64,000 bases of DNA from Paramacrobiotus metropolitanus. Taxonomy: Eukaryota; Tardigrada; Eutardigrada; Parachela; Macrobiotidae. A model generated the notes under the pieces. That model made no database searches, had not been told where the DNA came from, and saw only the letters and a program-made list of their open reading frames with translations. Within the stretch, counting starts at the first letter, position 1. Each line of letters opens with the position of its first letter. The stretch is from NCBI RefSeq assembly GCF_019649055.1, contig NW_026570268.1, positions 124,001 through 188,000 of the forward strand, given 5' to 3'. A program made the position numbers and the translations under genes. Shown here one piece after another: positions 14,361 through 56,225 of this stretch.

Positions 14361-16196
14361 TGATAGCATATCGTTGAGTTTTCCTTCGACGGAACTCTTG
14401 AGAAGACGGTGTAGAATTACAGCCGTAACGGCCGACGAGAAGAAAGGGAAGAATCGATATTCGGTTCCCATCCCCATCTGATCGCCGCCAGCCAGAACGC
14501 TCTGGTCCCTCTTCTCTCTCTTGCGGGCAGAAAGCCTCAGCGGACTCTCCTCTTGCGCGCGGACGGAACGATCTTTTGCTTCCGGCCAGCGGAACGACTT
14601 AGCCCGGGTAGATCGACGGACGGAACGTTCCTGCGGATCCTCGGACTTCAGCCTCGGACGGAACCCTCTCAGCTAGGGATGCCAAAAACTTGAGTTAATA
14701 ACTTGACTTGACTTTCGACTTGGTTTTTACAAAAAGTCGAACTTTTCAAATTACTTGGACATCCAAGTTAACTTTTTTGACTTGACTTGGAAGCTCAAGC
14801 CAAGTTATTAATTTGAAGTCGACTTCAAGTCGACTTGAAGTCGAATAAAAAGTAATACGAAAACTTGCGTATAGGGGAGTTATTAGGCGTCACACACCCG
14901 TTCCATGTACTGCTCCAGTCATTCGCCCGGAGCTTTGCCTCCTGGCTGCACATACAGTCATGTGCAGCCGTGTGGTCATAATCCACTTTGATGGCTGGAA
15001 CAGTACACCGAAAGTGTGTTGTACGACACCATTATCAAAACATTTTAAAGATATAACGCAGAAAATGTCGGTTTATTTTAAAATTCCTCAAATTTTTTTA
15101 AAAACTCGCAAGTCGACTTGAAGCAGAACTTGAGAACTTGGTTTGACAAACCAAGTCGACTTCGTTGACTTGGTTTGGAAGGATAAGTTCAAGTTAATAA
15201 CTTGGCTTTTCATCCAAGTTTTTTCGATTAACTCAAGTTATTAACTTGATAAGTCGACTTCGCCAAGTATTTAGGCAACCCTACTCTCAGCCCTCAACAA
15301 CCGGGGTCGCCTTTTCGTTAAGTCGCACCCGCAACTTTACCAACGCTTGCGGAAGGATTTCACCCCGAGAATCCGGCCGATCGACCCTGACGGACGGTAC
15401 CCAACCCGTACCCACCCGGTAAACAGGTCTCTAAGACCCTTGTAGAGCCTTAAGAACCCGATATAACCGGGCGATTTTCATTTTCCACCGACGAAAACTA
15501 GTTTTGTACGGCTGAAAACCTTTTTCACCCGGAGAAACGGGCTTAGAAACATCTGTTTTCGGGTAAATCAGGGTTAGCCAACCTTACTAGGTCGGACCTT
15601 CGAGCCTCGGTGAAGACCTTTAGAACCTCGGTTTCAACCTTCTCTAATTCGTGAAAAATTAAGAGAGTAACTTTCCCCCGGCTGAATATATTTTTGGTCC
15701 ATAAAAATTAATTTTTCTGAATTTTTCCTGATTTTTCCGGAATTTATTTATCGCGGAAATGAATTAATTCAAATTTAAAAATAATCTTGACGTCACATTG
15801 GCCGAAATCCTATAATAAGATCAGCCAATGAGAATCACGGGGAAATTCCCTGTGTTAAAGGCCCGTAGTGAGTCACTGTTTTTTCGAAATTTGCACACGG
15901 CGCGTAGAATCGTGACGTAGGCATTAATCCGCAAGACCGCTTAGTAGTGTGACGTCAGAGCGGTCAGTACTGTAGGATAGGACGTACGTAAGCTGTACCC
16001 TGTATTAACTTCAGTACTGAGTTGCAAGTAGTACAAGCACACACACCACATCATCCCCACCCCACCGGACCTTCGGACCTTAAAGGCAAAAGACCCTTCA
16101 CCTTGGACATCCCCAATTAGGGACAAGTCCGGACTTCATCGGCCGAAGGGATAACCCGAAGGCTAGTTCACGGCTCCAACAGGGCTGTATCTGGAC
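14361..16196 (+). other. E1 leader between 5' LTR and gag
   Basis: About 1.2 kb of leader once the nested element at 14674-15283 is removed. The sequence directly after the LTR is TGATAGCATATCG and does not begin with the usual TGG of a tRNA primer-binding site, so the priming tRNA is not evident. The leader is GC-rich at first and more AT-rich around 15650-15790. A CAATTA-loop hairpin with UCCC/GGGA stem lies at 16110-16123, and a CAACA-loop one (GCTCCAACAGGGCT) just upstream of the Gag start. Packaging and dimerisation signals would be expected here. Confidence 0.6.
14674..15283. mobile_element. Non-autonomous hAT-type element (MITE)
   Basis: Terminal inverted repeats TAGGGATGCC and GGCAACCCTA bound a 610-bp AT-rich segment. 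A perfect 8-bp target duplication CTCTCAGC flanks it (14666-14673 and 15284-15291), the hallmark length for hAT elements. The interior is a set of palindromic ACTTGAGTT/AAGTTATTAACTTG phrases, plus at 14887-15030 a looser pair of arms resembling those of the small element at 3163-3369. No transposase. It inserted into the E1 leader after E1 itself was in place. Confidence 0.9.
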
Positions 16197-16607
16197 ATGT
16201 CCGGGCGAGAGGACATCTACGCTCGGAAGTTCGACCAGGGTTATGCCCGACGTGACCAGGCTGGCGGGTAAACTTTCCGCCATGCCGGCCCGGGCAACCC
16301 GGAGCCCAAATCATCGGACTCCAATCGGTCGACAAAGTCCAACAAATCGGACAAGTCAACCAGCTCAGCCAAGGAGAAGCGAGATCAGCGGATCCTGGGA
16401 GCTGGTTTAACCCAATCGCCGGAGGATCGCTTCGAGGACGCCCACGATCGGACGTTCCTGGAGCCATCACAGGCTGAACCGGAGGTTCTACTTGGCCTAA
16501 TAGGCCAAGATATGATGAATCCGAAGCCTGCAGCTGGACATGGGCACCCGTGCCACCCCAACAGGGTGGCATGGGAGTCAGAATGGACTCGAGGCAGACC
16601 CGAATAA
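16197..16607 (+). pseudogene. E1 Gag, N-terminal segment
   Basis: The likely Gag start is the ATG at 16197 (MSGREDIYARKFDQGYARRD), about 25 nt after a CAACA hairpin. An in-frame TAA follows at about 16269, after which the same frame continues through a Ser/Lys-rich stretch and then an acidic one, to a TAA at 16605. No domain is recognised here; position and composition suit a Gag matrix-like N-terminus. Two perfect hairpins lie within it: CTTGGCC/GGCCAAG with loop TAATA (16491-16509) and TGCCACCC/GGGTGGCA with loop CAACA (16551-16571). Start choice is inferred, since this is the first ATG in the frame that continues into plausible protein. Confidence 0.55.
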
Positions 16608-16799
16608 GCCCTAACCAGACGGGAGGGAAGGTACCACCGGCTCGGGAGGTGACCCACAAGGCGGGTTCACCGGACAAAACCCCGGTATCCCCGGTTGGAA
16701 ACCCTAAGTCCCCGGGGAACTCCGGGCTAGTAAGACAACGTCACCGACCGATGACGTGTTCGACGAAACTGTGTTGCCCGATCAGGCGACCGGACGTCC

Positions 16800-17868
16800 G
16801 GACAGCTCGCAAGGGTTCTTCCGAACTCCGTTACCAAAGCAGTACGCTGGTTCCCACATTGGAGCCTCGGGCTACACCCCTCACCGATACCTAACTAAGA
16901 CCCCACCGGAGAAGATCTAAGATCCAGATGTTCTCCGGCAAGGGATCTACGAGTTGCAGAATCAACTCGTAGCCGCATCTAACATCGTGGAGTCGACCGA
17001 AAACGTTCTATCACAAACGGTCGCCAGCCATTAGCGTGAGCGCAAGAAGCTCACGGCTGACTTTGATAGCGCGAATATCGCTATCGATGACCTCGTCCAA
17101 CAAACCGAACGGCTTGAGTCCCAGTTACAAGCAACTGGAGCGCCCTGCCGATATGACCAAAACGAAGTCATCCGACTCCACGACAAGCTGGAGCAGTCTC
17201 GTGCCGAAGTGGTCGCCCTGCGCCAGGACTTGGATAAGCGGCTACTGACCCTCGGCGACTCGGAGGCTGGCTCGGCCTATTTGCAGAACATGCTGGGCCG
17301 GGTAGACGAATACCGGGACGAAAACGACCGGTTGAAACAGGGCATTATCTGCCGGGAAGGAGAAATCGACGAGCTCCAATCAGACCTCGAAGTTCTCCGT
17401 CAAGCCTACGAGAATCTCCGGCTGAATCAGAATGACCCGGAGGGTATAGCCGTGGACCTGCGGCTATGCCAAGCTCAACTCACCCACAAGATTTACGCCC
17501 TCAACGATCATCTCCGGAGCGAAGCCGCTCGGTTTGAACATGACCGACGAGAGAACCTCAAGGTCATTGAGGCTCAACGAGCCCGGATCGCCCAATTGGA
17601 GGCTGAAAGAACGGAGATGACGGAGTATCAGACCGAACTGTATGAGTATGGCTGTGAAGCGGCAGCCATTATCCGCGGATACCTCAAAGAACGGGGCGAA
17701 CTAAGCATCGAGGTGGCTCGCCCTTGTGGCGAGACGGCCTACCTTGAGCAGATGCTGGGAGAAAAACCTCCGTCATATCAGACCGCTTAGGAGCAGGAGA
17801 AGAAATGTCATCAAATCAATGACTACCTGCGCCGGGACAACCCCCTGCTTGACCCAATAGGTTAACCG
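16800..17868 (+). pseudogene. E1 Gag, long coiled-coil segment
   Basis: From about 16810 one frame runs through to 17868 with stops at about 16918, 17032 and 17788. Most of it (17035-17790) is heptad-rich helix, with many Leu/Ala/Gln/Glu/Arg positions, typical of a coiled coil of about 250 residues. A long coiled coil in front of the capsid is unusual for Ty3/gypsy Gag. Stretches such as NENDRLKQG-like and QLEAERTEM-like sequence show the pattern. It ends near a CAATA hairpin with a UUGACC/GGUUAA stem at about 17850-17866. Likely role: Gag multimerisation (inference). Confidence 0.55.
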
Positions 17869-17871
17869 GGG

Positions 17872-18676
17872 ATGTCCACCGACCAAACCTACATGGTCGG
17901 GATAGTTCAGGGCGAGCCGTTGACCGGGAATCCACCGAGAGGACCACTAATCCCATCGGCCCCGGAGCCAGAAAGGAACACATTGACGGCTACGTCCAAT
18001 GTACTGACCCAATCCACGGCAACAACAACCATGGCCTACGGAGGGACGTCCGCAAGTGTGACGTTCTCAACCACTACTAGGCCTGTGGCGTCGACCGCAC
18101 CCAGACCGAACCCGGACAATCGACAACAAAGTCAAGTCCGAGGCTCAAACCTTCGAGCCCCGGCTGCCGGGTCGGATAATTTTGGCAGTGGAACGGGACT
18201 CAGGCCACCGCTGAACTTCCCAACAGGAGGTCCGCAGCCTGACTCGGCGGTCTCGGGAGAAGACCGACAAAGATCGAACTCGCAGAACGCGTATCCGTAC
18301 CGAGCCCCGCCACGACCTGCCCAAGGAGGACAAAGAGACTGGGCCGACCCCCGGCTACCCGGCTAATCAGCCTCATCAGCCTCGGCAGGGCCCAATAGGT
18401 CCGGCGCCGCATGCTGACCAGTATCTGGTAGTGCCACCAGGGATGTGGTTCGACCAGAACGGAGTCCTCCAGAGAATCCCCGGCTATGGAGCGCAGAATC
18501 CTCCGCCGAACCAAGAGTACGGAGCGCAGAATCCTCCGCCCGGGCCAGGACAGTTACAACAACCGGCACCCCCGGGAAACCCGAACCCCCAACCTCAACC
18601 AAACGCACCCCAGCCAGCCCCGGCCGCGCAACCGTTTGTGGAATATATGCCGGCTCTGTATCCTCCGGCAGCATAA
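17872..18676 (+). pseudogene. E1 Gag, proline/glutamine-rich linker
   Basis: Two adjoining frames (17872-18366, then about 18381-18676) encode low-complexity Pro/Gln/Asn/Gly/Thr-rich sequence with YGAQNPPP repeats near 18487-18540. The second frame is the one that continues past a TAA at 18674-18676 into the capsid-like segment, so this is the linker between coiled coil and capsid, with one frameshift at about 18370. Hairpins with CAACA (about 18213) and CAATA (about 18385) loops are embedded. No enzymatic domain. Confidence 0.5.
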
Positions 18677-19540
18677 CAGGCACAACCGGCGATACAGGCC
18701 TATCAGCCCGCGCCACCCGAACAGGACATCGCGCAAGCCCGGCTGGAAGGCTACGAAGAAGGCCGAAACCGCTACGAAGAGCGAATGGCTCGGATAGCGG
18801 CTAAGAAGCTCCGGGGCGACTTGCCGAAATTTGACGGCGATCGGTCCAAAGTGGAGGGGTGGATCACGAAAATCCGGCGAAGCTATCGCCAGGAGGCGGA
18901 CGACATCGGAATGTCCAATACCGCCTTCATGAACGAAGTGGAGAGCGTCCTCACTGGGCAGGCCCTGGACTGGTACCAGAACCAGTCAGCCCTGGAACCC
19001 GAGGAGAACTGCTGGCCGGTAGAATACTGGCTCCAGCAATTCGCAGCTCGCTTCGCGGAGACAGATAAGCAGGTGACGGTGATAGCGGACATCACCGATC
19101 GGAAGTACAAGTTCGGGCAAGAGACCCCGGAGCAGTACTATGACGCTATCATTAGCCTCCAACAACGAGGTAACTTAAGCGATCAGCTGGCCGTCCACTA
19201 CCTGCGGGCAAATGTCCTGAAGCCGAACCTACGGGCAGCCTTGGACATCCGAATGCCGAAGACCACACAGGAGTTCCGAGATTATCTTCGGGACTTCACC
19301 CGGAGAAGGCCCGTGTACGAAGTCCAGAAGGGTGGTAATGTCAACAATTACATTACCGTCAGAACGGCGACCCCAATGCCCAGCGACTCAACAGGCTCCC
19401 GGATATATCCAGCCCAGTTCGCCAGATTACCAGAATGTGCAACCAGGGCTTCATCGACCCAGCCCTTCGGCGACACCCCCTACCCAAGCCCGAGCTCAAC
19501 TGGACCAGACTTGGGCGGCGATGGCGGCGTTGAACCTTAA
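18677..19540 (+). pseudogene. E1 Gag, capsid-like domain
   Basis: From residue ~30 of this segment the protein matches the retrotransposon Gag capsid pattern: a L.KFDGDRSKVEGWI-like start, then helix-rich sequence with ALDWYQNQ, WLQQFAARFAE and a major-homology-like DITDRKYKFGQETPEQYYDAI, ending near [17 protein letters not shown]. This is the ~200-residue capsid of Ty3/gypsy Gag, which assembles the particle. The frame is open from an internal ATG at 18785 to a stop at 19538, but the real protein changes frame between about 19330 and 19420 into the segment below, by mutation or programmed shift. Confidence 0.8.
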
Positions 19541-20360
19541 CGGATCCCCAACAGGGACCGTGATTCCGCCGCCCGCTTATGGAAATAGCAGCCAACCGAG
19601 TCAACCTCGGAGCCCCGGTTACGGCCAACCTCAGAGCCAAGGTTACTCCGGCTATGGCCAGCCCCAACAGGGCTACAGCCAGCCTCGGAGCCCCGGCTAT
19701 GGTCAGCCTCAACAAGGCTTCGGCCAACCCCAACAGGGTTACGGCCAGAACTCCGCCTACGGCCAACCTCAGAACCAGGGGTATGGCTCCGGAGACGGAT
19801 ATGGACGCGGTGGAGCCCCACAATATGGCGGCTCTGGCGGAGGACGTGGCGGCGGGAATCGCGGCCGCGGAAATTTCGGCAACCGCGGAGGCGGAGGTGG
19901 CCAAGCGCAGAACGCCCAACGGCAACCCCGCACACCACAGCAATTAGCTCGCCAATTAGCGACCTATGTCGATCGGATGGAAGCGAAGTTCTTCCAGTGT
20001 ACACAGGACGGAACGTTCTTGTGTCCCCACTGCATGTGGGGCAACCACAACCAAGCGAGTTGTGGATATGCCGGACTCCGGGAACAGGACAACCCTAACC
20101 GGAGATGGTACCTGGATTGGAGATACCGGTACGAGAATGGATGGCAACTGGGTTCGGCGAATCCGAACTACGCGAACATAGTACCAGCACCGCGACCCCG
20201 TCAGCAGAATGGAGGGAACCGGCAGTCTGCCCAAGAAGGCGGAGGAAACCGTCAGAACGGCGGACGTCCTCCGTTGGCGACACCGCCACCAGGCCAACGG
20301 CCGCAGTTGCCGCCTTCCCCTAGGCTCTCAATAGGAGCCAGGGTGGGTATTCACCGGTAG
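19332..20360 (+). pseudogene. E1 Gag, Gly/Gln-rich tail with CCHC zinc knuckle
   Basis: About 340 codons. The first 80 are Ser/Pro-rich, then a GYGQPQ-type repeat tract (19600-19790), an RG-rich tract (19800-19890), and a zinc knuckle [14 protein letters not shown] that fits C-x2-C-x4-H-x4-C exactly. The nucleocapsid function, binding genomic RNA, follows from the knuckle. The YGQPQ/RGG composition resembles phase-separating RNA-binding proteins, which is rare for Gag. The PQQG codons themselves produce CAACA-loop hairpins at about 19664, 19704 and 19724. Overlaps the capsid frame by about 200 nt in a different frame. Confidence 0.75.
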
Positions 20361-21325: not shown

Positions 21326-22508
21326 TTGGTCGTCTACCCACAAGGCGGAGTAGACCCAGTAAGACCAATCCAGCAACCCTTGCAACCGCCGCGCGTAGAC
21401 ACCAATAGTGTCCCCGGCGAATCAACCCTAATTTCGGTGGAAGTCACCATACGGGAAGTGACCTTCCAACCGCATTCGTCCACCCGACGACCGAAGGTAG
21501 CCCGGGCATGGACCCATGAAGTCCAGATTGGACCCACCACCACCATGGCTGTGTTGGATACAAGTCGCCTTCATCGTCACCTATTGCTGCACCGTACCGG
21601 TAGCGCTGCAGGGATACACCAGCCCCCACACCTTCCATGTTCAACCGAACAACTCGGACGTTCCAGTCCTACTTGGATGCGACTATCTGCATTCCAAGTT
21701 CGTTCTCACCCGGGCTCCGACCCCCAATGAGGGTCAGCAGAGCCCATCTTCGGGTGTAGTGCAGCCTATCCCGATACCAGAGGCATCGGGCACGGCAACG
21801 AACACGGCTACGAACACGGCTCGGATTACTCGGATGGTTAACCCGATTATCCCCGGACCCTCGATTTGCCCTGAATGCTCGGCCACCGAACGAAGCCTCG
21901 TCACGGAGCTGCAAGTCCATAGCGCCATCGAACAGCACATGGCCAAAGTACGGACAACCCGACTGGAACCAATTAAAGGGATATTAAAGTCTATCCCGAT
22001 ACCAGAGGCATCGGCCTCTGGTATACTCAGACAAAGATACCGAACATGGTTTACCGGCATTCGACACCTCCTTGAGGCCAGAACGGTCGAAATAATGAAC
22101 GAACTGAGACGGGTCGGCGCGAGAACCGACGACCAGATCCGCCAAGCCAGGGAGGAATGCCAGACGGTAATCAACCTAACTGAAGCCTTAGAAGAAGAGA
22201 TCATCGAATGGGAAGAGGAACGAATTGTACTCCACGCACAATTTGCGGAACATCAGCTTCCCATCCCGCCGATACTTAAAATCCAAGCCCACGAACTGGG
22301 CCGGCGACTCTTCTGGCACTTCAGAGATCCGTATCACCTTGGTACAATGGACACTCCTTCATTTTGGAGTAAGTTCGGTGAAAATACCCGGATAATTCGA
22401 GTTGTGCCAGACCCAGAGCCTCCGAATGAACCTTGTAACTGGCACCAGGCCAAGAAAGTGAAGGCTTTGCGGGGACGTACACCCACAAGAAGGGGGTCGT
22501 CTAACTAA
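21326..22508 (+). pseudogene. E1 retropepsin-like protease and following helical domain
   Basis: A frame from 21326 carries VQIGPTTTMAVLDTSR, a retropepsin active-site motif with DTS in place of DTG. The matching C-terminal motif VLLGCDYLHSKFV lies in another frame at about 21655-21695, so there is a frameshift (and perhaps a deletion, since the gap is short for a protease) between 21565 and 21610. Downstream the second frame stays open to 22508: a Pro/Thr-rich stretch, a CPEC pair near 21878, and a helical, charged segment of about 130 residues (22060-22290) of unknown function. The protease would process Gag-Pol. Confidence 0.6.
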
Positions 22509-23069: not shown

Positions 23070-24079
23070 TTGGCTACGTCAAATGATACCGGTTTAGACC
23101 CGGACACTGACCCCTCCGAAGACGAAACATCGGAAGGAGGTTCGACGAAAGAAGGATCCGACACGGAACGACGGATACCACTCACCGACGACGAACAGAT
23201 TGCCCAACAGGCAACATTCGTCGGAGGTAAACCCGTTGTTTCCGGCCAAACGCCGGCACCCGAGGCTCAAGCCTCGGTGAAAACGGCTAAGTCCGAAAAG
23301 ACCGTATATAACCCATGGAAAAGGGTTAAGAAGCCGAAGCCAATAGCGACGGCGAATGAATCTAACCCAACGGTCAACCGTCTTCACGTATATACGGAGG
23401 GTAAGGACGACGACCGGCAACCGGTATTCGTCGAGAACAAGTCCACACTACCTCCGTACTCAACCTGCGCAATACTCGTACGAACCCTCAAGAGTATGAA
23501 CCCTAAACGGAGCATCCGGTACGCATCATTCCGGAAAAAACACTCCGTAATTCGTCCAATAGAAGATGACATCGAGATTCGACCAACCTGCGATACGGCT
23601 TGGAGCAGGGTCCAGAATGCGACTGAATATAGCCAGACACTTCGCAGAGGCGCCCAGATCGGTTACATGCACTACTCGGACACCTACGAGTATGAATTCG
23701 ACAACGAAGGCATCGAATGGGAGATTCCCATGGAGTTGCCCGGGTCGAGAAGCATGGAGACCGACCATACAACTTACCGAAGGCGACACAATACGACGCC
23801 ACTACGGTCCGAACTCAACAGAAGGTTGAGTTACCACCCCGGGCAGTCGTGGAAGTCACGGTAACCATTGACCTAGAGGTGGACACCACTAAGCATAAGT
23901 ACCTCATGTACCTCGGCTCGGAGGAAGCCTTAGCGGAGGGTATCGAGATGAAGTTAGCGGATCGTCCAACCCCACACGACGGGAAGAAATTCACCATCCT
24001 GGTGGCGAACCACAACAACAAGGAGGTCATCATCCGGAAAGGAACCCTATGGGCCGGATCGAACCGTACGAACATATGA
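23070..24079 (+). pseudogene. E1 pol region between protease and RT
   Basis: Two overlapping frames (23070-23864 and from about 23790 to 24079). The first begins acidic, then has a Lys-rich patch and a structured segment with HVYTEGKDDDRQPVFVENK and an IEIRPTCDTAW-type beta-rich portion. The second ends in the pattern ILVANHNNKEVIIRKGTLWAG, the beta segment commonly found between protease and RT in Ty3/gypsy Pol. A frameshift at about 23800 separates them. No catalytic role of its own is suggested. Confidence 0.5.
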
Positions 24080-26899: not shown

Positions 26900-26907
26900 C
26901 CGCGAAT

Positions 26908-40544: not shown

Positions 40545-40985
40545 AGAGTAACTGAGCAGTTAAGAAAAGACAGTCTCTGCAGTATGGTTTCGGCTACCCT
40601 GAGCGCATTTATTATTACGCAAAGTGATTTCAGATAGCCGACAATTCCTCCAAATGCACACCATGGCGCCATTTTTGAGTGCATGGATACCGAGAAAGAA
40701 ATAGCAAGAAAGAATGTGTTAAGGTTAAGCAACTTTAGACAGAAAAACAGCTAGCAGAAAGATATGATGGACAGCTAGGAGAATAGCCTTCGGCGAAATG
40801 GTTGAAAACCTTCTGCAGAAAGGTTGATGACCTTAAGAAAAGGTTGATCAGAAAGGTTGATGACCTTTAAAAAAGGTTGATCAGAAAGGTTGATGACCTT
40901 TAGAGAAAGGTTGATGACCTTCATTGAGCGTCAACCATCAACCCGTCAACCTTCCTGCCGGCTACATACGAGTATATTGCGCAGT

Positions 40986-42527: not shown

Positions 42528-42559
42528 TTGTAATGTAATGAAGTTTATTGTCCTTGCAA

Positions 42560-43730: not shown

Positions 43731-43737
43731 GTTGTTT

Positions 43738-45692: not shown

Positions 45693-46929
45693 AACTTCGT
45701 TGATGTAAGCCGGTTTTTTTGAAATTTTTGGTTGTGAAAATACCGCGAGTTTTTAAAAACGGTGCAATACGTGCAATCATATGCAGAATGGTAGTTTGCC
45801 TCCGAGTACTCACCACTATCACTGCAGAGCGGACACAAAACTTAAAATCATCATTTTCTGTGCAGTCTGTAGACAAACGTGGTTTGGCAAAATACGCACA
45901 ACGAGGTGACTTTTCGCACTTTTTCGAGGTGTGACCATAAGCACAACAGGTGGCACATTGTGGTACGTAAATATGGTCTTCTACTGGGCAACGGGACCAC
46001 TGAATCATTAGATACCGTTGGTCAGTCAGGATATTCCGAAAAGCCTGGCTGACCTCCAAGACAATAGCGCAGGTGGTAACTTCGTCACGCTGGCTCGTTA
46101 GCCGGGTAACAATTTTGACTGCTGAATTGGGTGGGAAAAAGCTTTTGCCGTTTAATTCCTTCAGAAAGTCATCATTTGACAGTGTTTTTGGGACTCGGCA
46201 AACAATAACTCTAGACATTCTTGGTTTCGTAGGAACTACATCATAACCTAGCGCATCGGCATGGTTTTGCAAGATGGACTTACCATTTTCGGCACTATCA
46301 GCATTCTTAAAGTGCAGTAAGACGCGTTTACCACTGATTGGGCGGATGTCGGTCACGTTGAGGTCTGATGCGCCGGCAGGGATAGCTGTGTTGAGTGCAT
46401 CGGTTAGTTGGGTCAGTTCATAAGGAGTTGTGCGAGATTGATGCGGGGGAAGAGAAACTTTGACCTTTGGTTGGAGGATAACTGCGGGCAGGGTTTCTTT
46501 TGCGATTGTCGCATAGGTTTTGCGTTGCGGAGCAGCTGAAACAGAATCAGGATGCTGCAACAAGGCAGTTGACATGCATTCTTGGTTGCCGGAATTGGGA
46601 ATAATATCTGTGTGGTGGTAGTCGTTGGACAGGGTGATGTTACCACCAGTTTTGCGAATGAGCTGGATCACCCGCTCTTTTTCGGAGTCGAGCTCGGTTT
46701 CCGTCTTCAGGGCGTTTACATACAGTCGGATATGATGATCCTTAAGTAAGAAAGGGATTTGCTTCAGAGCATCTTTGTTCCTGACGAGAATCGGGCGAAG
46801 CGCACTTTTGGCAGGCAGTGTAGCATATAATTCATCAACAATGGCAGACAGTTTATTGATTAATTCGACAAACTGCAGATCAGACAAATCCTCCTCAACA
46901 AAATTATCATCATCTTCTGTATCAGGCAT
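45685..46929 (-). CDS. LINE ORF1 protein
   Basis: 414 codons, open from ATG 46929 to TAA 45685, beginning 39 nt from the LINE 5' end. The N-terminus is acidic and helical, the middle has an esterase-free, RRM-like basic region (ISGKRVLLHFKNADSAENGK; VIVCRVPKTLSNDDFLKEL), and near the C-terminus there is a zinc-knuckle-type CATCCAYGHTSKKC plus a second Cys-rich part. It would bind LINE RNA and chaperone it. It is the only nearly intact protein of this LINE. C-terminal integrity is uncertain as it overlaps ORF2 directly. Confidence 0.75.
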   Translation of the reverse strand: MPDTEDDDNFVEEDLSDLQFVELINKLSAIVDELYATLPAKSALRPILVRNKDALKQIPFLLKDHHIRLYVNALKTETELDSEKERVIQLIRKTGGNITLSNDYHHTDIIPNSGNQECMSTALLQHPDSVSAAPQRKTYATIAKETLPAVILQPKVKVSLPPHQSRTTPYELTQLTDALNTAIPAGASDLNVTDIRPISGKRVLLHFKNADSAENGKSILQNHADALGYDVVPTKPRMSRVIVCRVPKTLSNDDFLKELNGKSFFPPNSAVKIVTRLTSQRDEVTTCAIVLEVSQAFRNILTDQRYLMIQWSRCPVEDHIYVPQCATCCAYGHTSKKCEKSPRCAYFAKPRLSTDCTENDDFKFCVRSAVIVVSTRRQTTILHMIARIAPFLKTRGIFTTKNFKKTGLHQRSFE

Positions 46930-46968
46930 ATTGAACGAGAAAGTAACGACAGAATATAGAGATCACCT

Positions 46969-48049
46969 TAATTACCATGGAGGGAAGCCGCCAACAGCGG
47001 CACCCCAGGACCCTAACCCGGAGGAACCAGATAAACCAGAGGATCCTCCGGCGGAAAACCATGATGACCCGATGGATGGAGAAGATGCTGGGCAGGACGC
47101 CCCTTCACACCAGCAGGACTCGGGTCCATCCAACCAGCAAGGTCTTTGGGAACGGACACCCAGCCCACCGAAGGATCAACTGTTCATGGTGTGGCATGAG
47201 GATACAGCGCAAGTGTTACCGCGGGAGATCCCATCGAAGCCCATAATACGGCTTCCACCACGGCCAAAGCAGACGGCGATGATGCGAGCGGCTAAACCAA
47301 AGTTCAAGCCTCGGATCTCCGACACCGATGAAGGCTGGGTGCACGTACATGCTGCACTCAAGGCGCTGTCTTGGTCCGGCCCGCTGTACGCAACCCCGGA
47401 CCTGGCCTACCAGCTGCTGAAGCATTGGCGCGTCGATAAGAACGGGAGCTGGTTCGATCTCAGCAACGACAGGGTCAAGGAATACTGTCGGTTGGCATAC
47501 GAGACAGGAGCCATCCTTCGAGTCTACACCCATACCGGGAGGCCATACTATGTCTTCTCGAGGGAGGAGCAAGACCCAGCACCTGGGACTTACCTCGGAT
47601 GGCGCGATGCAGTTATCGCTTGCTTGCGGACGGATCGACACCCGGACGGACTAACTCGCCGGGAGATCCTGAGCCACCTAATCGGGCGGTTCGAATTCAT
47701 CCTGATGTCCGCCAGACCCCAACTGGAAGATGATCGGTATCGACCGATTCGACGGAAGGAGAGCAACCTGTACCACCTCACGGACGAACTGGAATATGTC
47801 CTGGTGCAGGCCTGCCGGCAGAAAGCCCTCGGAATGAGTGAAGCTTACAAGACGCCTACGCAGCGCTTCTCCGTTTTCCACCTACCTGCAGACTTCGGCC
47901 AACATCTGCCTAAGACCCGGTCGAGCTCGGAGAGCCCAAGTAAGGCTCTTACCCTGGCTGCCCGGGCAGAGGAGTCCAAGAAACGGTTAGCACGGGCGAA
48001 ATCCATCAACCCGGCCGACTTGCCGGCGGAAGCCCGGAAAGCGACCTGA
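46969..48049 (+). pseudogene. E1 ORF with conserved-looking folded domain
   Basis: The frame open to 48049 becomes E1-like from 46969 (the upstream part is antisense LINE). After an acidic Pro-rich start it has a folded region at about 47325-47890: DEGWVHVHAALKALSW, LAYQLLKHWRVDKNGSWFDL, VKEYCRLAYETGAILRVYTH, GRPYYVFSREEQDP, DGLTRREILSHLIGRFEFIL and YHLTDELEYVLVQACRQ. Helix-helix-strand pattern, possibly two winged-helix units; I do not recognise the family. The upstream part of the gene is at 41704-42527. Confidence 0.55.
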
Positions 48050-48302
48050 AAGTGAAGTCACCCGAGGCTCCTTGCCCAATAGGCGAGAGTTGACAGCCTC
48101 TACAACGGGAACGTTTTCTAGCCCAATAGGCTGGAAGGATACAACCTTGGAACGGAAGAGAACCGACCGTACCCGACCGTTGTACTTGTCTAACCGTAGA
48201 ACGTAGAACCCAATAGGTTTTCGTAAAACCCAAAAGGTTTAAAAATAACTTAATAAAATTTAAGTTTGACCGCAGCCTCAGCCCCAGCCTCGGACGGAAG
48301 CC
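48050..48302 (+). other. Short interval with CAATA and CAAAA hairpins
   Basis: About 250 bp between two ORFs. It has four hairpins in a row: TTGCC/GGCGA (about 48073), TAGCC/GGCTG (about 48120), AGAACC/GGTTTT (about 48206), with CAATA loops, and AAACC/GGTTT with a CAAAA loop (about 48222). Ends in an AT-rich tract before the next gene. It may be a regulatory interval. Confidence 0.6.
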
Positions 48303-50560
48303 TATAACCCGGAATGCCAGATGTGCCGAGCCAACAACGACTCACCGCGGACCCGCCTACCGTGCGCGGACTGCTTGCTACGGAACCTGGATAAACAGGC
48401 CTAGGATGGAAGGGCTCAACGACGAGACCAGGCTGTGACCCTATATCTCCAAGTCGTAACTGGAAACCTGAGCGCGTACAACCACCTGGTTAGTACCAGC
48501 CGGCTCTGGGACCAGCTGCACTCACAAGAGATGCTGCACCTGTGGGACATGCAACGCCACCGCCGCGTCCGACAGGTGCCGGGTTGGCTAAACACCCCAT
48601 CGGTCCCAGAGAACCCCAGACTCGTCCAGGCCCGCGAAGCACGCCGAGAAAGTGAGCGTGAAGAAGAGCGAAGGGAACTCGCAGCGGTTGACCGGCAACT
48701 TGCCCGCAGACAGCGAGAGCATGAGGAGCGGACGAACCGGGAGAACATCCCACCCCCGGCGGCTTCGACCGGCAGGCTCGCAGCGGAACCCAAAAGGTTC
48801 CCGGATGAGCCCACCGCACCGTTCAGCGGACTAGCGAATGTACGGAACGTGGACGGAACCATGAATATATCGGCAGTGGCTGACGCATTTGCCATGAATC
48901 CTAACCCCCTTCAAGGAGCCACCGTAGCACTTCTCGGACCAGACGGCCGGCAATATATGGCCCAGATTATTCACCCTCCGCAACCGCAAGCCTCTGCGGC
49001 AATACCGCAAGCTCAACCGGAACAGCAGCCGGTAGCCCTGCAAGTGAGTGGCTTACCTCAACCTCCGGCTCAACCGGTAGTTCGCTCGGCTGATCAGCCA
49101 GGGACGGTGGCAGTGACCCCAACAGGGTCCACCCCGTCCAACCAAAGAAGTCAGAGCGTAGCGGACTTGGCTCCCGGCGACTTACGTCACCGGTTGGAAA
49201 GCGACTTGCGTCGGAAGTTGGAGAGTCAGAACAGGGCTTCCACCGACCGAGCCCCGGCTGATCGAGCTTCGAAGGTTCGAACCCGACCCTCCCCCGGCAA
49301 ACGATCCGGATCGGAAGATAACGGAGGGCTAGTGGTGGACTCTAACCCCAAATCCCGCAGGAACTTCACACAACCCGTGACTCAACACCCTGCACCGGCT
49401 CCGAGACCAGATCCACAAGTGATGGCCCCGGACGAATTACCGGTGCCCCAGTACCCGATACTTGACGTGCAGGTGCCAGGCCAGCATGACCCTCGGTACG
49501 ACCATGCACGCCGACAGGGCATTGCGGTGGAAACCCCACACCCGACGGAACAGACGGATTACGTTATGGCCACCATGCGGTACCGGGAGGATCGTCGGAC
49601 TCAAGTCTGGAACATGATGAATGGGTTACGGCAGTTCCTCAACAACTCTGGTTACCAGCAGATGTTTGAACACCGTCAATGGTCAAAAGACTTCCAGATG
49701 GTTGACCGCTTGGCGTACGGCACTGGCTTCCCGCACTTTCGGAATAACGGCTTGCCCAGCGCTACAGACCCGGCCATCCTGGCCATCTCATTAGATCAAC
49801 CCGATTGGTCTCAGCTGAGTCAACTTCCGATATACCCGGATGGACGTGAGATCACGGATCACACGGAATGGGTTGCGCAGTTTGTACTGCCGGAGGCACA
49901 AGCAGCCATGGTAGTCACCGCAGCCAGAGCATCCCGGGATATCCCCGAGTACCTTGGAGCCGCAGAACCGCAGGCTCAAGGAGACGCCCCGATGGCCTTC
50001 CTGACGGCTCAGCGACTGATTTTCGCGGCCCGGCTTGGCCACCATCAAGCCACTACACCTTGTACTGCGCGTACCGGAATAACAACATTCCACCCCGGCT
50101 GCGAACCACTGTGGCCCGGCTCAGCACACCAATGCGAGACGCAGTAGTCGGATTGTGGCTTCGGGACTTCTTTATGACAGCGGAACGCTGGAAGAAGGAG
50201 TACCAGTACTACCCGGACGTGAAACTGGATAACGACGAAGCTTCGACCCTCTCCGAATGGTGCCGATGTAATCGCCACTTGCCACTGGGGTTCACATCAC
50301 CACCGATGCCCGAAGGCAAGTCATACTACCGGTATGACATGTGGCCCGGCTCATCATCATCCAGCCGAAATCGCCGGCGTTGAGAAGCGCGTCGTGTGAA
50401 GGGCGGAAAACCGGATCAGGAGGCTTCGGATGCCCAGTCTACCTGTACCCAGGAGGCCACGTCCTCGAACCAACCGAATCAACGTGGCCCGGACAAGGAT
50501 GACGACTCGGAAGGATCCCACTTCGGTGGTGGAGCCCCGGTCGTCGGCGACTTAGAATGA
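48303..50560 (+). pseudogene. E1 last gene, conserved with E2 (zinc ribbon, coiled coil, helical domain)
   Basis: The frame begins near 48303 with a zinc-ribbon pattern CQMC-x12-CADC, then TAG at about 48402, then stays open to 50147 (570 codons from 48435). Order: zinc ribbon, Arg/Glu-rich coiled coil (48600-48740), Pro/Gln linker, PGKRSGSEDNGGLVVD, then a helical domain with DPRYDHARRQGIAVETPHPT and QVWNMMNGLRQFL. A frameshift near 50045 moves the rest into another frame (YTLYCAYRNNNIPPRLRTTVA) with a TGA at 50381, ending at 50558. The E2 gene at 62368-64000 aligns throughout. Function unknown; no membrane segment. Confidence 0.8.
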
Positions 50561-50683
50561 AGAAGACCGGTAGCCGGACCCTAATAGGGTTAGGCTTACC
50601 GTTAAAACCGGTCAAATGGATATGGCGACGTCCCCAATAGGGACGTTGACAAATTTTACCCGGACAAAACTGGAAAGAATCGT

Positions 50684-53600
50684 CGCAGATCGCGTTTAAC
50701 CATGACTCGCTACCATGTCGGACCCTCAATAAGGGAAACGACGGTAGAACTCTCCGCAGACCGCGTTAACCACATCTGCTACCTGCACGGACCCTCAATA
50801 AAGGATACGTCGGGTCAGCCCATCCCTGTACTGAGTCCAAACGGACCCCATGGAAGGGATTCCCCGGAATGACCCGGCAATTACGTGTTACCTGTCAGAA
50901 TTTCAGTGGCTGCACCGTACCGACACGTCTTCCGCGGTTTCCCCCGAATAGAATCCGTCAGAAGGCTCGGATCCTCCGGCATTAACCCTTTGGCACAGAT
51001 CGTGTCCTTAACCACGTTCGGCTACCAGAAATCCTGCAGCCACAGATTGTGTGCCTCACCACATCTGCTATGTGCATCACGGATCGTGTCTTCAACCATG
51101 ATCTGCTACCATCACCACAGATCGCAGTACGTAACCGATCGGCTACTGCCATTGGCCCGGAATGGAGCCTTAAGCCCAAGCCCGCAGACCGCGGCATCTA
51201 ACCACTTCTGCTACCGAAGAAAGTCACAGAGTCAGCCACAAGCACGGCTGTCCGTGGAGATCTCAGCGAGGAAACTGCAGATCGCAGCCTTTAACCACGA
51301 TCTTGCTACTAACTGGACCCTCAATAAGGGATACAGTAGTAGCCTCCCGCAGATCGCGAGTAACCACAATGTTGCTACCTTAACCACCCCGCAGACCGCA
51401 GTTCCCGACCCTGCCCAAGCTAGCCGGGTCAGAACCATGATCACACTATGGAAGGAACAGACCGTTCAATATCTACCCGGACCCTCGAAGGCTCCGGAGT
51501 AGAAGCCTAATAGGCCTCCACCTGTGGATGAAATTCTAAGTTCCGTCTCTTAGATGCGGGGAGCAACATCACCTACATCTGGGGAACGGAAATACCAGAG
51601 AAACCCCCGAAGAGCGGGCTGCGGCATTTCAGGAAGACATATTACCTTAAATGCCTCGGTTCAAGAAACAGAGTCCAAAGAAGTGGACCTGACCGGACTT
51701 GAACCCGCGAAACGTCGGAAAGCTATCTCGAGAACGCAATAGGTTCCGAGAAAGCGCTTAGAAGGCCTTGGAAACACGGATGTGGACCGTGGAATGGAAT
51801 CCACATCGGTGTTTCCCGGAGCGAGATGACGACAACTCGTGCTCCCACCACCAAGAGGCACCTCGAGAGGCAAATACCTTTCTTGAGAACCCAATAGGTC
51901 CGAGACAGGTGCCCAATAGGCCGCCAGAAGACTGACGGACCCTCATCCCCCATGGACGATCCGGGCAGAACTGAGACCTCGTCGTCTGTGAGGGATAACC
52001 CGAGCAAACCCTCGGCCTCGCTGGATCGGACTCGGCAAGCATGTTGCTTAGACGGCTCAGCGTGACCACTGAGTGAAAAATGGCCTACCGTAGCTTTGGA
52101 AGAGAAGCCTCCTAAACCACGGTGGTCCAGACGACCCTTCGTACGGAAGGCGGTTTATCGGCGCACTACATGGTGAACCCCTGTGCTGCGCTGATAACCC
52201 ACTACGGCAGAAGAGCCCGAGACCTTCGGATGGATCCCTCGGATGAACCCGATAAGTACGAGTTCAACTCAACTGAACCGTACCGGAGGTTCCCTCTGGT
52301 TTCCCCTGGATAAACCGGACAGAATGTTCCGGTCACCGGCGACAATGACAGGAGGTTAACCGAGCCAATAAGCGAGGGTACGCAACGTCACTGACGGAAC
52401 CTAGATATGTGACGGTTTGGTTGGCTTCAGCCGAATCAACTACTCCGCCACCGTCGACCGCTTCTGCAGAACCTGTGGAGGATAAACCATAGAAATGTTA
52501 CGGACCGTGATACCAACCACGGAACCGTCATTGACTCAGGGAGTTGTCCCCAATAGGGACACCCCAACGTCGAACCCCCGGACCGGAGGAGTCGAATGAC
52601 CGCAGATCGCGACGTCAACCACGAATCCGCTACGTCAACGGGACGAATCGCACGAAAAGCGGCTGGCTGGCGGCGAACTGCGCAAACGCAACTCGTCTTT
52701 GGTCAGCCACTCCTGTAGAAGGATCCCGGTTGACCAGTCCCGTAACTTTGACCACAGAGCCCAGTAGGCTCTCATCAATTACCGGAATGCGGATTACGGG
52801 AGCTTGGGAAGCAACTTCTCCTTAACCCCGGACCCGCAGGTTTTACCCTTGGATCCTACCAGCCCGGACCTTGTCAGCTTAGGAAGCAATAACCCTTATA
52901 CTGATGAAGTCCAGGTGACGGCCTAATCATCGGACCCTTCGTACGAAAGGTGGTTGACCCGGGGCTCCCAGCATAACTTGCTGGGTCCCCCTGTTCGAAC
53001 CACTCCGGCAGAAGGACCCCGGTGGAACACTAGTCCTATAACTTGGACTTCGGAGCCCAACAGGCTCCCAGCCCTTCAAATCCAACCTGGAATTCTGCGG
53101 CCTAGGAAGCCATGACTGCTATACCGATGAAGCCTAGGTGAGAAACCGGCTTCACAGCGATTCGTCGCACGAATAGCGGCTGGACAAGCACAACTGCGCG
53201 CAACACAGTTGTCCTTGCTCAGCCCCTCCGGCAGAGGGACCCTGGTCGAGTGGCGGTTCCATAACTTGGACCGTTAGAGCCCAATAGGCTCTACCCGCCG
53301 ATCAGATGTCGACTGCGTTGGCCAGGAAGCAGAATCTCCTGATCACTCGATGATGTCTCGATCTACAGGACTCAATCCCCGGACTCTAAACCAAAGAGGA
53401 TTCCGCTAACATGGTGTAGAAGACGTCACTGCCGCCTTCTCCGCCGTGTTTGCTAATGCACCCATGGATAACCCGGGAGTTGGAGCATTAGCTGGCTGAT
53501 AAAATCCAGCGATGGGCCCAATAGGCCCCGTCGAACGACGTTGACTCCACCCGGGATCCCTCGTACGAAAAGCGACGAACCATTGTGGAGGAGGGTAACC

Positions 53601-53694: not shown

Positions 53695-53833
53695 GACGCT
53701 GCTTGCAGAGGCCCAATAGGCCCCTAGCATAGCTTAGCAGCCCGCGGTAAAACCCGATTTCTACCTACACGGTACCAGTAAAGGCCCAATAGGCCTCCAG
53801 CCCGGAGAAACATCCGTCGGAACGGATGGATCG

Positions 53834-54356
53834 GGACATTAGGGCACATCGGTACCATTGCTTCGATCCAGAGGATCGGACTCATGGTACTGATGACCGG
53901 CGTGACCATTCACCCGCGAACCGGACCATGGTGAACTCACGGAACGTGCTAGGACATTAGGGAACACTCGCATCCTTGCCCGACCTCGAAGAAGATCGAG
54001 TAATGATACGCGTGTCCGGCATGACTACATGCCCGACGGAAGCCATGGAAAGATTCCAATAACTACGGCAAGTAGGCCCAATAGGCCTTTGTCGTGCCAA
54101 TGAATTACCCCCAAGTCCCCCGGAATGGATCGGACGTAGAGCGGCGCGCCAGCGGTTCGCTGTAGAGAACCCACAACGTACTACGGCTTGCGGGCCACTT
54201 CGACGAGAAATCCCGGAGCAAGAAACGGAAAGAGCCCAATAGGCTCTATCTTACCCTCCGAAAGGATGTACCAGGACATCAAGGTACGCGGGCGAATGCG
54301 TGTTAGCGAGACCAGTTAATGTGCATTCCTCCGCGTCCGACATGACTGCACGCCCG
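53834..54356 (+). repeat. Family D: three GGACATTAGGG elements
   Basis: Copies at 53834-53916, 53951-54036 and 54272-54356. Shared 5' edge GGACATYARGG and 3' edge CCGRCRTGACY with GCCCG. Between them lie stems that differ by copy: GGTACCAT/ATGGTAC-type in the first, CTCGA/TCGAG in the second, ACGCGG/CCGCGT with GAATGC/GCATTC in the third. Same logic as Family C: fixed ends, covarying middle. Confidence 0.7.
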
Positions 54357-54887
54357 GAAGGAGGCTACGGATACCAGCTGAACCTGCTGGATTACCCGGA
54401 TAGGATCCAGAATGGACCTCCCGTGGAGAATCCCACGGTGCGAACCGGCCAGAATGGACGTGTTCCCCGATGACCAAGACAGGATGCTTCGATACCGGCA
54501 TCCCGGGTGTTCCTGCCTAAGTAGAAGCACGGGATCAGCCGAAGGACGGACCAGAATGGACCCCGTCTTTACAACTTTAGAGCGACTACCTCGCGGCTAA
54601 AACCCAATTAGGTCTAACATAGCCGCAGGAAAGCCTCTTTTTGCATGCTTTTTGCTAGCCGCCCGGTGAAGATCCCCGGCATTACCGACCACAGGGGTCG
54701 GACTCCCACCAGAGCATGCTGGGCCAGTTTCAGTTGGTTCCCAATAGGAACCCCCGGACTTCCATGGCCCAGAGGCTCATCACCAAACTCGCAGGGCTCG
54801 GACCTGGCCCAGAAGCTCACCCTTCACCGGATTAACAGGGCTAGGATCTCGTCCAGAAGCCTAACACCCGGCAACAACCCTACCCTC

Positions 54888-55400
54888 AGCGCCCAATAGG
54901 TGCTAGAGGGCTACTTAGAGGTTTTTGCCCGGATGGATCCTCCATCAGACCGACAACCATGGCTTGCTTTGGACTTAGAATCAGCATCCGAGGCTGCCAA
55001 CGGACTTAAACTTTTTAACCGGGGCTATCCTCGGGTTTGACCCCTTGGACCCCGGATTGGACGTCAGAGTCCGGCATTAACCCTTATAATGTTGCCCAAT
55101 AGGCGACAGCGGACAATTACGGGGTTTTTGCCCGGATAGAACCTTCAACATGCCCAGTAATCACGACTCTACCACAGCGGCCGAAGATTCCATCGGACTC
55201 TACCTCAGTAACCGAGGCTGCGATTGGACTTTAACTTTCTGACCGAGGCTAATCCTCATATACCGAGGTTACCCCGGATCAGACCCTTCAAAGCCTGACA
55301 TTAACCGGTCCAGGTTGCCCAATAGGCAACGGGACGCGGAATTACGGTATTTGTCCGGACGAAACCCTGGGAAACCGGTACTTCACCGGAAGATTCCCCT
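54888..55400 (+). repeat. Family E: tandem ~200-225-bp units each led by a CAATA hairpin
   Basis: Two full units start at 54888 and 55090, and a third, partial one at 55314. Each begins with a Family A hairpin, then (A)ATTACGGGGTTTTTGCCCGGA, a middle with GGACTTAAACTTT/GGACTTTAACTTT and AACCGGGGCTATCCTCGG/GACCGAGGCTAATCCTC, and a close of CATTAACC before the next hairpin. The units differ by many substitutions, so they are old. Confidence 0.7.
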
Positions 55401-55542
55401 GTAAGAAGACCCAATAGGTCTCATTCCTAACTCAGAGAGGAGGCCTTCTGGCTTTCGCGGATCGCGACGGTGCCTCTCCATTCAGCCGACCCTATGAACC
55501 CCGGCAATGGAGGTTCCATTCAACTTTAACCGGAGGATCCCA

Positions 55543-55653
55543 GGTCGGAAAGTGAGTTTCATGCCCGTTTCTCACCTGACTCGTGGAAATTCATGTCTAA
55601 CCCGAAGTCATTCGGTCGGAAGTAAGTTTCGCGCCCGTTTCTTACCCGACCTT
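55543..55653 (+). repeat. Family F: paired GGTCGGAA hairpins, also present in E2
   Basis: Two copies, 55543-55580 and 55614-55653. Form: GGTCGGAA, then GTGAG or GTAAG, TTTC-GC/AT-GCCCGTTT, then CTCAC or CTTAC and (C)GACC. The G-to-A change on one arm is matched by C-to-T on the other. A homologous hairpin (GTCGGAAGTAAG ... CTTATCCGACC, followed by GGTGAAT as in E1) occurs on the E2 sense strand at 59663-59698, so this structure predates the split of the two elements. Confidence 0.8.
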
Positions 55654-55840
55654 CGGTGAATCAGAACTGAATCAGAATCACCGGTGAACCTTCGGTGAAT
55701 CAGAATCAGACCATCGGGTATCCCGAGAACCGATGCCTTGGACCAGGATGACCGGACATCCAGTGGACTGGAGCCCCCGTCTGCGGATCAGCTCTAGTCG
55801 GAATGAGCAATCGGACTAAAGTCCCGGACGAAAGACTTTG

Positions 55841-56225
55841 AGTTTACCTTTTTTTACTCGGAATGATGTTCTTATTTCTAGATCTGTAACAGATCTCTTT
55901 TATTAACCTGCTCACCAGGAATTGTGCTGTTTTTTACTTTAACGAGAGAGACAGAGAATTCATTAACACTATTTTTTTACTTTACTTTTCGCCGTTACGG
56001 ACCATCATCAACAGAAGCCTACACCGGTCCAACTACAACACCGACCGACCTTCGGATTTCTGCCGTGAGTTGTTCTGCCACCACGGGTCCGGAGGAGAGC
56101 GCCGTGCCGGAGAGACCCACACCGGACACCCCCGAGGCGATGCCACCGACCCCAATAGGGTCGTGTGCGGAGCGGGCACTGGGACGGTAGGAGGCCGGTC
56201 CTTCGCGGACTCCCGCCCAGAAAAA
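55841..56225 (+). promoter_or_regulatory. E1 conserved 3' end before the LTR, with atypical PPT
   Basis: Begins with a T-rich tract, then TTCTAGATCTGTAACAGATC (a palindromic AGATCTGT-AACAGATCT core), TGCTCACCAGGAATTGTG, and later CAACAGAAGCC and CACCGGTCCAAC. E2 has recognisable versions of each in the same order. Directly before the 3' LTR is CCCGCCCAGAAAAA; E2 has GATTCCCGCCCAGAGGCA in the same place. This is where the polypurine tract that primes plus-strand DNA should be, but it is only partly purine. A CGACCC/GGGTCG hairpin with loop CAATA is at 56147-56163. Confidence 0.7.

Follow-up and report, generated by a model that had tools for sequence, protein, structure and literature searches.

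Why should one retrotransposon carry dozens of small hairpins that keep the same loop while their stems change? The question arises from a stretch of 64,000 nucleotides from Paramacrobiotus metropolitanus (contig NW_026570268.1, positions 124,001 to 188,000; hereafter the window), which holds a copy of a giant Ty3/Gypsy-like long terminal repeat (LTR) retrotransposon that we call E1. An initial annotation had noted about 50 stem-loops in this element with the loop CAATA or CAACA (CAAYA, Y being C or T) and had suggested that a loop-reading RNA-binding protein would select them. Our analysis indicates that the E1 hairpins are probably recognition sites, specific to the family, on the genomic RNA. 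A protein that the element itself encodes, most likely Gag through its nucleocapsid part, would read them for self-packaging. Two related families have arrays of the same kind but with other loops, as seen in one copy of family E2 and part of one copy of family E3. The element in question is:

13950 to 56637, + strand: E1 copy with nested transposons, recognised by its LTR pair, its reverse transcriptase (RT) and RNase H, and homology to C68, a copy bearing open reading frames (ORFs)

Across the whole window, perfect CAAYA hairpins with a stem of at least 4 bp number 31, all of them on the sense strand. In transposon-free E1 (31.8 kb; the bounds by which inserted transposons were excluded, here and in the comparison of families below, are approximate), the sense and antisense counts were 31 and 0 for stems of at least 4 bp, 24 and 0 for at least 5 bp, and 10 and 0 for at least 6 bp, against dinucleotide-shuffle means of 0.38 (maximum 3 in 100 shuffles), 0.07, and 0.00. 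The hairpins far exceed both controls, and the claim that they occur only on the sense strand is confirmed. When stems of at least 5 bp were enumerated between 16001 and 56200 irrespective of loop, CAATA (13) and CAACA (11) led among 5-nt loops; the next, CATCA and TGATG (8 each), were gone once the inserted transposons were excluded. Neighbouring loops had no stems of at least 4 bp at any occurrence of CAAGA (n = 52), CATTA (28), CACTA (20), CAATG (24), CGATA (28), AAATA (14), or GAATA (24), and such stems were seen at 3 of 29 occurrences of CAAAA and 2 of 13 of TAATA.

We noted that the stems are not free throughout. The core CC-CAAYA-GG, with outer pairing not required, occurs at 35 sense sites and 1 antisense site in the window, and Watson-Crick pairs are formed at pairs 3, 4, 5, and 6 in 31, 27, 28, and 21 of the 35, falling to 8 at pair 7 and 12 at pair 8; control CC-N5-GG sites pair at positions 3, 4, and 5 in 69, 59, and 81 of 261 cases. 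The fixed part is therefore CC-CAAYA-GG, and the free change described in the initial annotation is limited to the outer 3-4 pairs. A covariance model built from 25 sites of C68 gave 43 matches in the window at E <1, of which 42 lie on the + strand within E1 and one at 3732, the best minus-strand match having E 2.5. The figure of about 50 thus holds roughly when members with G-U pairs or minor defects are included, perfect stems numbering only 31. As first noted, the inserted transposons are free of the array: all 31 hairpins and all 43 matches fall outside their approximate bounds.

The pattern extends beyond the window. In 63 of 64 E1 sources all CC-CAAYA-GG seeds lie on one strand, the window having 35 against 1. 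At 23 distinct C68 sites, which were selected for pairing, 92.8% of cells pair; shuffles reach 65.0% and slid controls no more than 56.5%. Across the genome the pattern RGNCCCAATAGGNCY has 196 matches and its reversed control 7, and in the sequences analysed its two free N positions are G-C, A-T, or C-G in 106 of 110 cases and G-U in 4 (the loci overlap and are not independent). Further, the mean pairing probability predicted by ViennaRNA with 50-nt flanks was 0.95 for 30 C68 hairpins and 0.42 for 97 control hairpins. The E1 hairpins, in window positions, are as follows; the five examples singled out at first (54736, 55314, 53275, 16551, and 32801) all lie where they had been placed and have perfect stems.

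16110 to 16123, +: leader hairpin, loop CAATTA; CAATA in three aligned E1b copies
16171 to 16187, +: weaker member; in C68 a perfect GGCTC-CAATA-GAGCC
16492 to 16508, +: loop TAATA (at 16498); CAATA in 6/6 other aligned copies
16551 to 16571, +: TGCCACCC-CAACA, perfect stem
17849 to 17865, +: member with G-U pair (seed, covariance model)
18215 to 18231, +: weaker member (seed, covariance model)
18387 to 18403, +: member with G-U pair (copy alignment, covariance model)
19545 to 19557, +: TCCC-CAACA, perfect stem
19660 to 19674, +: AGCCC-CAACA, perfect stem
19705 to 19719, +: AGCCT-CAACA, perfect stem
19726 to 19740, +: AACCC-CAACA, perfect stem
20323 to 20339, +: weaker member; GGCTCC/GGAGCC to GGCCCC/GGGGCC between copies
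21398 to 21412, +: GACAC-CAATA, start of pol, perfect stem
23200 to 23214, +: TTGCC-CAACA, perfect stem
30977 to 30989, +: GGCC-CAATA, perfect stem
32801 to 32817, +: GGATCC-CAACA, perfect stem
34276 to 34292, +: member with G-U pair (seed, covariance model)
36134 to 36148, +: GTCGG-CAACA, closing pair other than C-G; possibly a chance hairpin
41442 to 41456, +: GCCTC-CAACA, putative E1 member between inserted transposons
46987 to 47001, +: GCCGC-CAACA, perfect stem
48071 to 48087, +: member with G-U pair (seed, covariance model)
48120 to 48132, +: AGCC-CAATA, perfect stem
48207 to 48219, +: AACC-CAATA, perfect stem
48785 to 48801, +: member; loop CAAAA at the homologous C68 site (GGAACC-CAAAA)
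48995 to 49009, +: TGCGG-CAATA, perfect stem, closing pair not C-G
49115 to 49129, +: GACCC-CAACA, perfect stem
50628 to 50646, +: ACGTCCC-CAATA, perfect stem
50723 to 50735, +: CCCT-CAATA, perfect stem
51318 to 51330, +: CCCT-CAATA, perfect stem
51886 to 51902, +: weaker member (seed, covariance model)
52545 to 52561, +: TGTCCC-CAATA, perfect stem
52756 to 52772, +: weaker member (covariance model)
53052 to 53068, +: GGAGCC-CAACA, perfect stem; paired changes in copies
53275 to 53293, +: TAGAGCC-CAATA, perfect stem
53514 to 53528, +: GGGCC-CAATA; GGGCC/GGCCC to GAGCC/GGCTC in copies
53710 to 53722, +: GGCC-CAATA; GAGACC/GGTCTC in copies
53782 to 53796, +: AGGCC-CAATA, perfect stem
54074 to 54088, +: AGGCC-CAATA, perfect stem
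54231 to 54247, +: AGAGCC-CAATA, perfect stem
54736 to 54752, +: GGTTCC-CAATA, perfect stem; exact match at 9 genome places
54888 to 54904, +: member with G-U pair (seed, covariance model)
55091 to 55107, +: member with G-U pair (seed, covariance model)
55314 to 55330, +: GTTGCC-CAATA, perfect stem
55407 to 55421, +: AGACC-CAATA; AAGACC/GGTCTT to AAGGCC/GGCCTT in copies
56147 to 56163, +: CGACCC-CAATA, perfect stem

The initial annotation had also listed TAATA as a rare variant of the loop; the site at 16498 looks instead like decay of the window copy. Some units are locally duplicated, namely the repeated CCCT-CAATA sites and the AGAGACC units in the 3' region.

Comparison of E1 copies (20 aligned sequences for the 3' part and 7 for the 5' part, the window included in each) revealed that loop and pairing are kept at most sites despite drifting flanks, and that certain copies lost, or never had, given sites. 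Change rates were determined after dropping copy-sites with flank identity <45% or >2 gaps, and only sites present in at least four sequences are reported for the 3' alignment. In four 3' comparisons the flanks changed at rates of 0.16-0.37, the stems at 0.06-0.15, and the loops at 0.03-0.05, loop changes falling mostly at position 4, with positions 1, 2, 3, and 5 changed in only 0-6%. In the 5' part, the flank, stem, and loop rates were 0.226, 0.167, and 0.079 between E1b and C68 and 0.207, 0.117, and 0.027 between E1a and an E1b copy. Judged by double stem changes, pairing was kept, and not lost at the neutral rate, in six of seven comparisons: in the 3' part, 16 of 17 double stem changes still pair between E1a and the window (G-U allowed; 3.1 expected), 10 of 15 between E1b and the window, and 12 of 13 between E1a and C68; in the 5' part, the figures are 1 of 1 (E1a and C68, a single change), 10 of 11 (E1b and C68), and 11 of 11 (E1a and E1b). 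Changes inherited in common enter these counts, and the events are not independent because the copies are related. Paired changes occur inside gag as well (GGCTCC/GGAGCC to GGCCCC/GGGGCC; AACCC/GGGTT to AGCCC/GGGCT). Among mismatched cells of 210 distinct but related sites (identical 21-mers tallied once), G-U exceeds A-C by 73 to 26 at pairs 3-5 and by 88 to 50 at pairs 3-6. The two should be about equal under neutral transitions, and the excess of G-U is thus the bias expected where the sense RNA folds. Overall, the aligned copies show that selection on the E1 sense RNA holds loop and pairing more than stem sequence.

The position of the hairpins in the element is best described with reference to the parts of E1 recognised in the window.

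13950 to 14360, +: 5' LTR (TGTTGG...GTCACA), 94.7% identical to the 3' LTR
16478 to 20357, +: ORF1 (Gag) remains, several broken open frames, homologous to C68 ORF1 (1597 aa)
26877 to 27722, +: RT piece (PF00078, E 1.6e-24)
27512 to 28468, +: RNase H piece (PF17919, 1.4e-31; PF17917, 1.1e-29)
48405 to 50144, +: ORF4 piece, 580 aa, without Pfam match, homologous to C68 ORF4 (813 aa)
50380 (approximate) to 56225, +: 3' non-coding region, highest hairpin density
56226 to 56637, +: 3' LTR, pairing with the 5' LTR

In C68 the long open frames are intact as they stand: ORF1/Gag is followed by a pol frame in two pieces with protease (PR), RT, RNase H, and an integrase zinc domain, then by an integrase (IN) frame of 545 aa, ORF4, and a long 3' non-coding region. 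The order PR-RT-RNaseH-IN runs through three frames (PF13975 and PF00078; PF17917 and PF17921; PF00665), and we estimate the length of C68, from homologous positions, at ~23 kb. Hairpins in C68 are densest in the 3' non-coding region (3.79 per kb over the 4.5 kb covered), followed by gag (2.09) and ORF4 (0.82); the first pol stretch has 0.20 per kb and the second, which includes integrase, 0.00. The locations first given therefore stand for gag, the genes after pol, and the 3' non-coding region, whereas pol is nearly free. Likewise, among 30 loci around RT (most ~3.9 kb), only two contain a CAAYA hairpin of at least 5 bp, one each, and the other 28 contain none; two weak 3-bp pol sites recur in many of the 25 of these loci that were searched with the covariance model. 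It is as if the hairpins sit where coding constraint permits.

The reading frame leaves a trace in the loop itself. In ORF1, CAACA stands at 5 of 5 phase-0 sites (30 of 30 copy-sites), and at 8 of 8 phase-1 sites one or more copies read CAATA (31 T, 8 C; Fisher p 0.0008 on sites); stems <3 bp were counted apart, and loops lacking the following G or gapped in C68 were omitted. Coding itself excludes T in phase 0, because CAATAG there reads CAA-TAG, a stop, and CAACAG without a hairpin is also present in phase 0 (17 copy-sites). More telling is that the hairpin persists with C in place of T and that T predominates wherever it is free. A protein motif as the source of the repeats is ruled out, as both the codon phase of the loops and the residues they encode vary.

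A search of the 170-Mb genome with the RT piece found, besides the window copy, at least 33 places at 85-93% identity and at least 6 at 77-78%; these are lower bounds, since 40 places were scored among 304 candidates. The more distant group is a sister family, E2, represented here by one copy (C42, L039-L040; G000:C42:671001-691000) whose RT shares 77-78% DNA identity with E1. This copy contains no CC-CAAYA-GG seed and a single CAAYA hairpin of 4 bp. It has instead 32 sense and 0 antisense hairpins (stem of at least 4 bp; shuffles 0.20) with the 7-nt loop [AC]AC[AG]NAA, or MACRNAA. Altering any one fixed position of this loop leaves 0 to 3 hairpins, and position 5 tolerates any base. C-MACRNAA-G seeds number 45 on the sense and 0 on the antisense strand, with pairs 2-5 paired in 36, 39, 33, and 28 of the 45, and at 21 distinct E2 sites, selected for pairing, every pair varies on both sides. 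A third family, E3, lies in the window on the opposite strand to E1 and has its own loop, ACAMA, with 7 sense and 0 antisense hairpins of at least 4 bp (shuffles 0.12).

57300 (approximate) to 64000, -: E3, related element, 3' part; a frame resembling ORF4 by eye at 62371-63999, then 3' region
63600 to 63620, -: E3 hairpin, loop ACAAA, 8 bp
61614 to 61628, -: E3 hairpin CGACC-ACAAA
61520 to 61536, -: E3 hairpin CCGATC-ACAAA
61438 to 61452, -: E3 hairpin CGACC-ACACA
61379 to 61393, -: E3 hairpin CGACC-ACACA
60469 to 60491, -: E3 hairpin CGGATGAAC-ACACA, 9 bp
59017 to 59029, -: E3 hairpin, loop ACACA, 4 bp

A count of each loop in each family (sense strand, stem of at least 4 bp) is almost diagonal, with 0 antisense hairpins in every cell. 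CAAYA gives 30 in C68, 30 in the E1 copy of the window (instead of 31, as 37159-46700 is also excluded here), 1 in E2, and 0 in E3; MACRNAA gives 0, 1, 32, and 0; and ACAMA gives 0, 0, 1, and 7. Mean pairing probability in context is 0.87 for E2 and 0.93 for E3 hairpins. The E2 and E3 loops are alike (CACA-GAA and ACAMA), and the E2 model also weakly matches E3 hairpins and other places in the window. A motif common to host elements is ruled out, given the E2 copy without the E1 seed and the other loops of E2 and E3.

What, then, would read the loops? The sense-only occurrence, the compensatory changes, the near-invariant loop, the G-U excess, and the pyrimidine that follows the frame are consistent with the loop-reading protein proposed at first, a proposal that had overlooked the different loops of two related families. 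Different loops in families of one host suggest that each element probably encodes its own reader. Gag comes first among the candidates: its C-terminal end, an RGG stretch and a single CCHC knuckle, is a recognisable RNA-binding module, and the knuckle, C[PG]HC[ML]WGNHNQASC, is near-identical in four E1a and three E1b sequences (one with an internal stop), which have a common loop, and differs in the single E2 sequence compared (CHFCKFGNHPQARC). The E1 sense RNA presents dispersed CC-CAAYA-GG hairpins with 3-4 freely changing outer pairs, whose loop the nucleocapsid part of Gag may read; through multiple dispersed sites Gag could recognise the very long RNA of its own element among the RNA of sister families, and numerous sites over a genome of >20 kb may raise avidity for self RNA and aid condensation and packaging.

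Several observations weigh against packaging by Gag as the function. First, retroviral packaging signals usually sit in the 5' leader; the E1 array shows no such concentration, with one hairpin only in the leader and the bulk in gag and the 3' non-coding region. Second, two copy comparisons run contrary: 5' E1a against C68 has flank, stem, and loop rates of 0.053, 0.046, and 0.062, without contrast, and in 3' E1b against C68, the seventh comparison for pairing, 0 of 6 double stem changes pair and 6 break it. Third, several E2 ORF1 hairpins are probably not independent because CCGAC/GTCGG recurs there within a repetitive peptide stretch. Fourth, exclusivity of the loops is not absolute, the E2 model having one good match in E1 (L043:9473-9489, 19.2 bits); an E1 3' site at 54685-54701 in the window matches it at 15.6 bits and is a second exception. 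Finally, the evidence comes from one copy for E2 and a 6.7-kb part of one copy for E3, and the knuckle and loop are set side by side in one between-family contrast, the E3 Gag lying beyond the sequence read.

Another protein of the element, for example ORF4, could be the reader, with the array serving nuclear export, stability, or translation of a very long RNA and not packaging. ORF4 is present in E1 and E2 (37% identity over 621 aa), contains 11.3% arginine and, in E1, a Cys-rich stretch; hairpin density peaks in the 3' non-coding region, and export and stability elements are often located in such regions. We nevertheless hold this to be unlikely, though worth keeping in mind, as ORF4 has no Pfam domain and the recognisable RNA-binding end belongs to Gag. 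A host RNA-binding protein that the elements exploit, or by which they are restrained, would also suit a fixed loop on a variable stem, the usual target of host loop readers. This is rather improbable: one host reader would favour a common loop, and three related families in one genome have three loops with almost no cross-occurrence, which makes an element-encoded reader likelier. A role as decoys or shields, protecting against host RNA silencing, editing, or recombination and making the loop incidental, would accord with a dispersed, dense array of predicted stable folds; it leaves unexplained both the family-specific loops and the near-constancy of loop positions 1, 2, 3, and 5 (0-6% change, flanks 16-37%, 3' sets), and we regard it as very improbable. 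We give still less credence to a mutational origin without selection, by template switching that perfects stems or by duplication of a few hairpins. Fold-back repair can generate perfect palindromes, and the local duplications noted above point the same way; against this, stems vary widely among sites and loops vary by family, loop and pairing are held in place while flanks diverge, and loop position 4 tracks the reading frame. Chance, or a compositional effect in a sequence rich in A and in GC, is ruled out by the shuffles (0.38 against 31) and the empty antisense strand, despite the strong A over T skew of the sense strand.

Recognition by Gag for self-packaging therefore remains our preferred reading, and it allows a broader, more tentative proposal that we rate somewhat short of an even chance, namely that this clade of giant LTR retrotransposons has a self-recognition code. 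Each Gag would read only the loop of its own family, families would coexist in one germ line without cross-packaging, and the loop would change at a family split together with the knuckle. The three loops of three related families make a direct test possible via protein-by-loop binding. If correct, the proposal would extend the idea of dispersed packaging signals from RNA viruses to retrotransposons on unusually clean evidence, and the arrays would supply natural sets of RNA hairpins with matching readers. The array itself shows that giant retroelements can bear a dense RNA-level layer of selection, inside and outside genes.

Some further features of the locus deserve mention. The E1 LTRs are 411 and 412 bp long with TG...CA ends. 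No matching target site duplication was found at the window copy, whose flanks differ: a 160-bp satellite array lies to the left (4208-13949) and an inverted stretch to the right (56638-56774). The flanks being opposite orientations of one satellite without a matching duplication, the insertion site seems rearranged. Between pol and ORF4, 17.5 kb of the window (30790-48270), in part inserted transposons, is absent from C68; the ends of the inserted elements at 24455-26860 and 37158-40966, 100-530 bp long, are repeated and inverted, and these elements have no CAAYA hairpins. ORF4 (L043:3081-5519 in C68; 48405-50144 in the window) is long, and in E1 its Cys-rich stretch has CxxC pairs near the start. 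Pfam gave no match for ORF1 or ORF4 of C68, and no env match in its ORF1, pol pieces, or ORF4. A host anion-exchanger gene adjoins the E2 copy (39-57% identity among the 120 of 6123 matches listed), and HSP70-family sequences have 88 matches in the host genome, often exon by exon, perhaps an expansion. In the window, the tRNA gene search found none and Rfam at curated score 0 matches; IMG/VR searched with the RT piece held no relatives.

A literature search, judged by titles and the starts of abstracts and covering few subscription papers, found no retroelement with such an array. Retroviruses have their signal mainly in the 5' leader, unlike E1. Giant Gypsy-like retrotransposons of >20 kb are known as Burro in planarians (PMC6431247), and E1 is likewise an animal Ty3/Gypsy-like element above 20 kb. 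Burro has an ORF1 of 4,873 aa with BIR, ankyrin, BCL2-like, and Env-like parts, and the portion available mentions no loop array (PMC6431247); E1 has the array, and its frames are separate, with an ORF1 of 1597 aa, a separate pol, and no BIR- or ankyrin-like domains in place of a single giant polyprotein. In yeast Ty3, RNA packaging requires a nucleocapsid domain with a single CCHC knuckle (PMC4974528); the E1 Gag also has one CCHC, plus the RGG stretch. Selection of self RNA is poorly defined even there: Ty3 packaging sequences need both untranslated regions and POL, are not precisely defined, and the available text names no repeated-loop array (PMC11381356), whereas an array of the E1 type is readable from sequence. 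The closest likeness is to the dispersed packaging signals of single-stranded RNA viruses and hepatitis B virus (HBV), with loops xxYA in MS2, GxU/GxUxUxxU in parechovirus, and RGAG in HBV (PMC6281560, PMC5431903, PMC7612645), for which a role of multiple sites in avidity and condensation has been proposed in RNA viruses (PMC6281560, PMC5431903). As there, E1 has many stem-loops with a common loop motif and differing stems in coding and non-coding RNA, and like the parechovirus signals, which are conserved between strains, its hairpins are conserved among relatives at the RNA level, one of seven comparisons being contrary. The parechovirus motif is short and degenerate, was found by SELEX, and has capsid contacts in a structure (PMC5431903), whereas the E1 loop is near-invariant and evident from sequence. 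Unlike the viral systems, E1 is an LTR retrotransposon, and three related families carry three loops.

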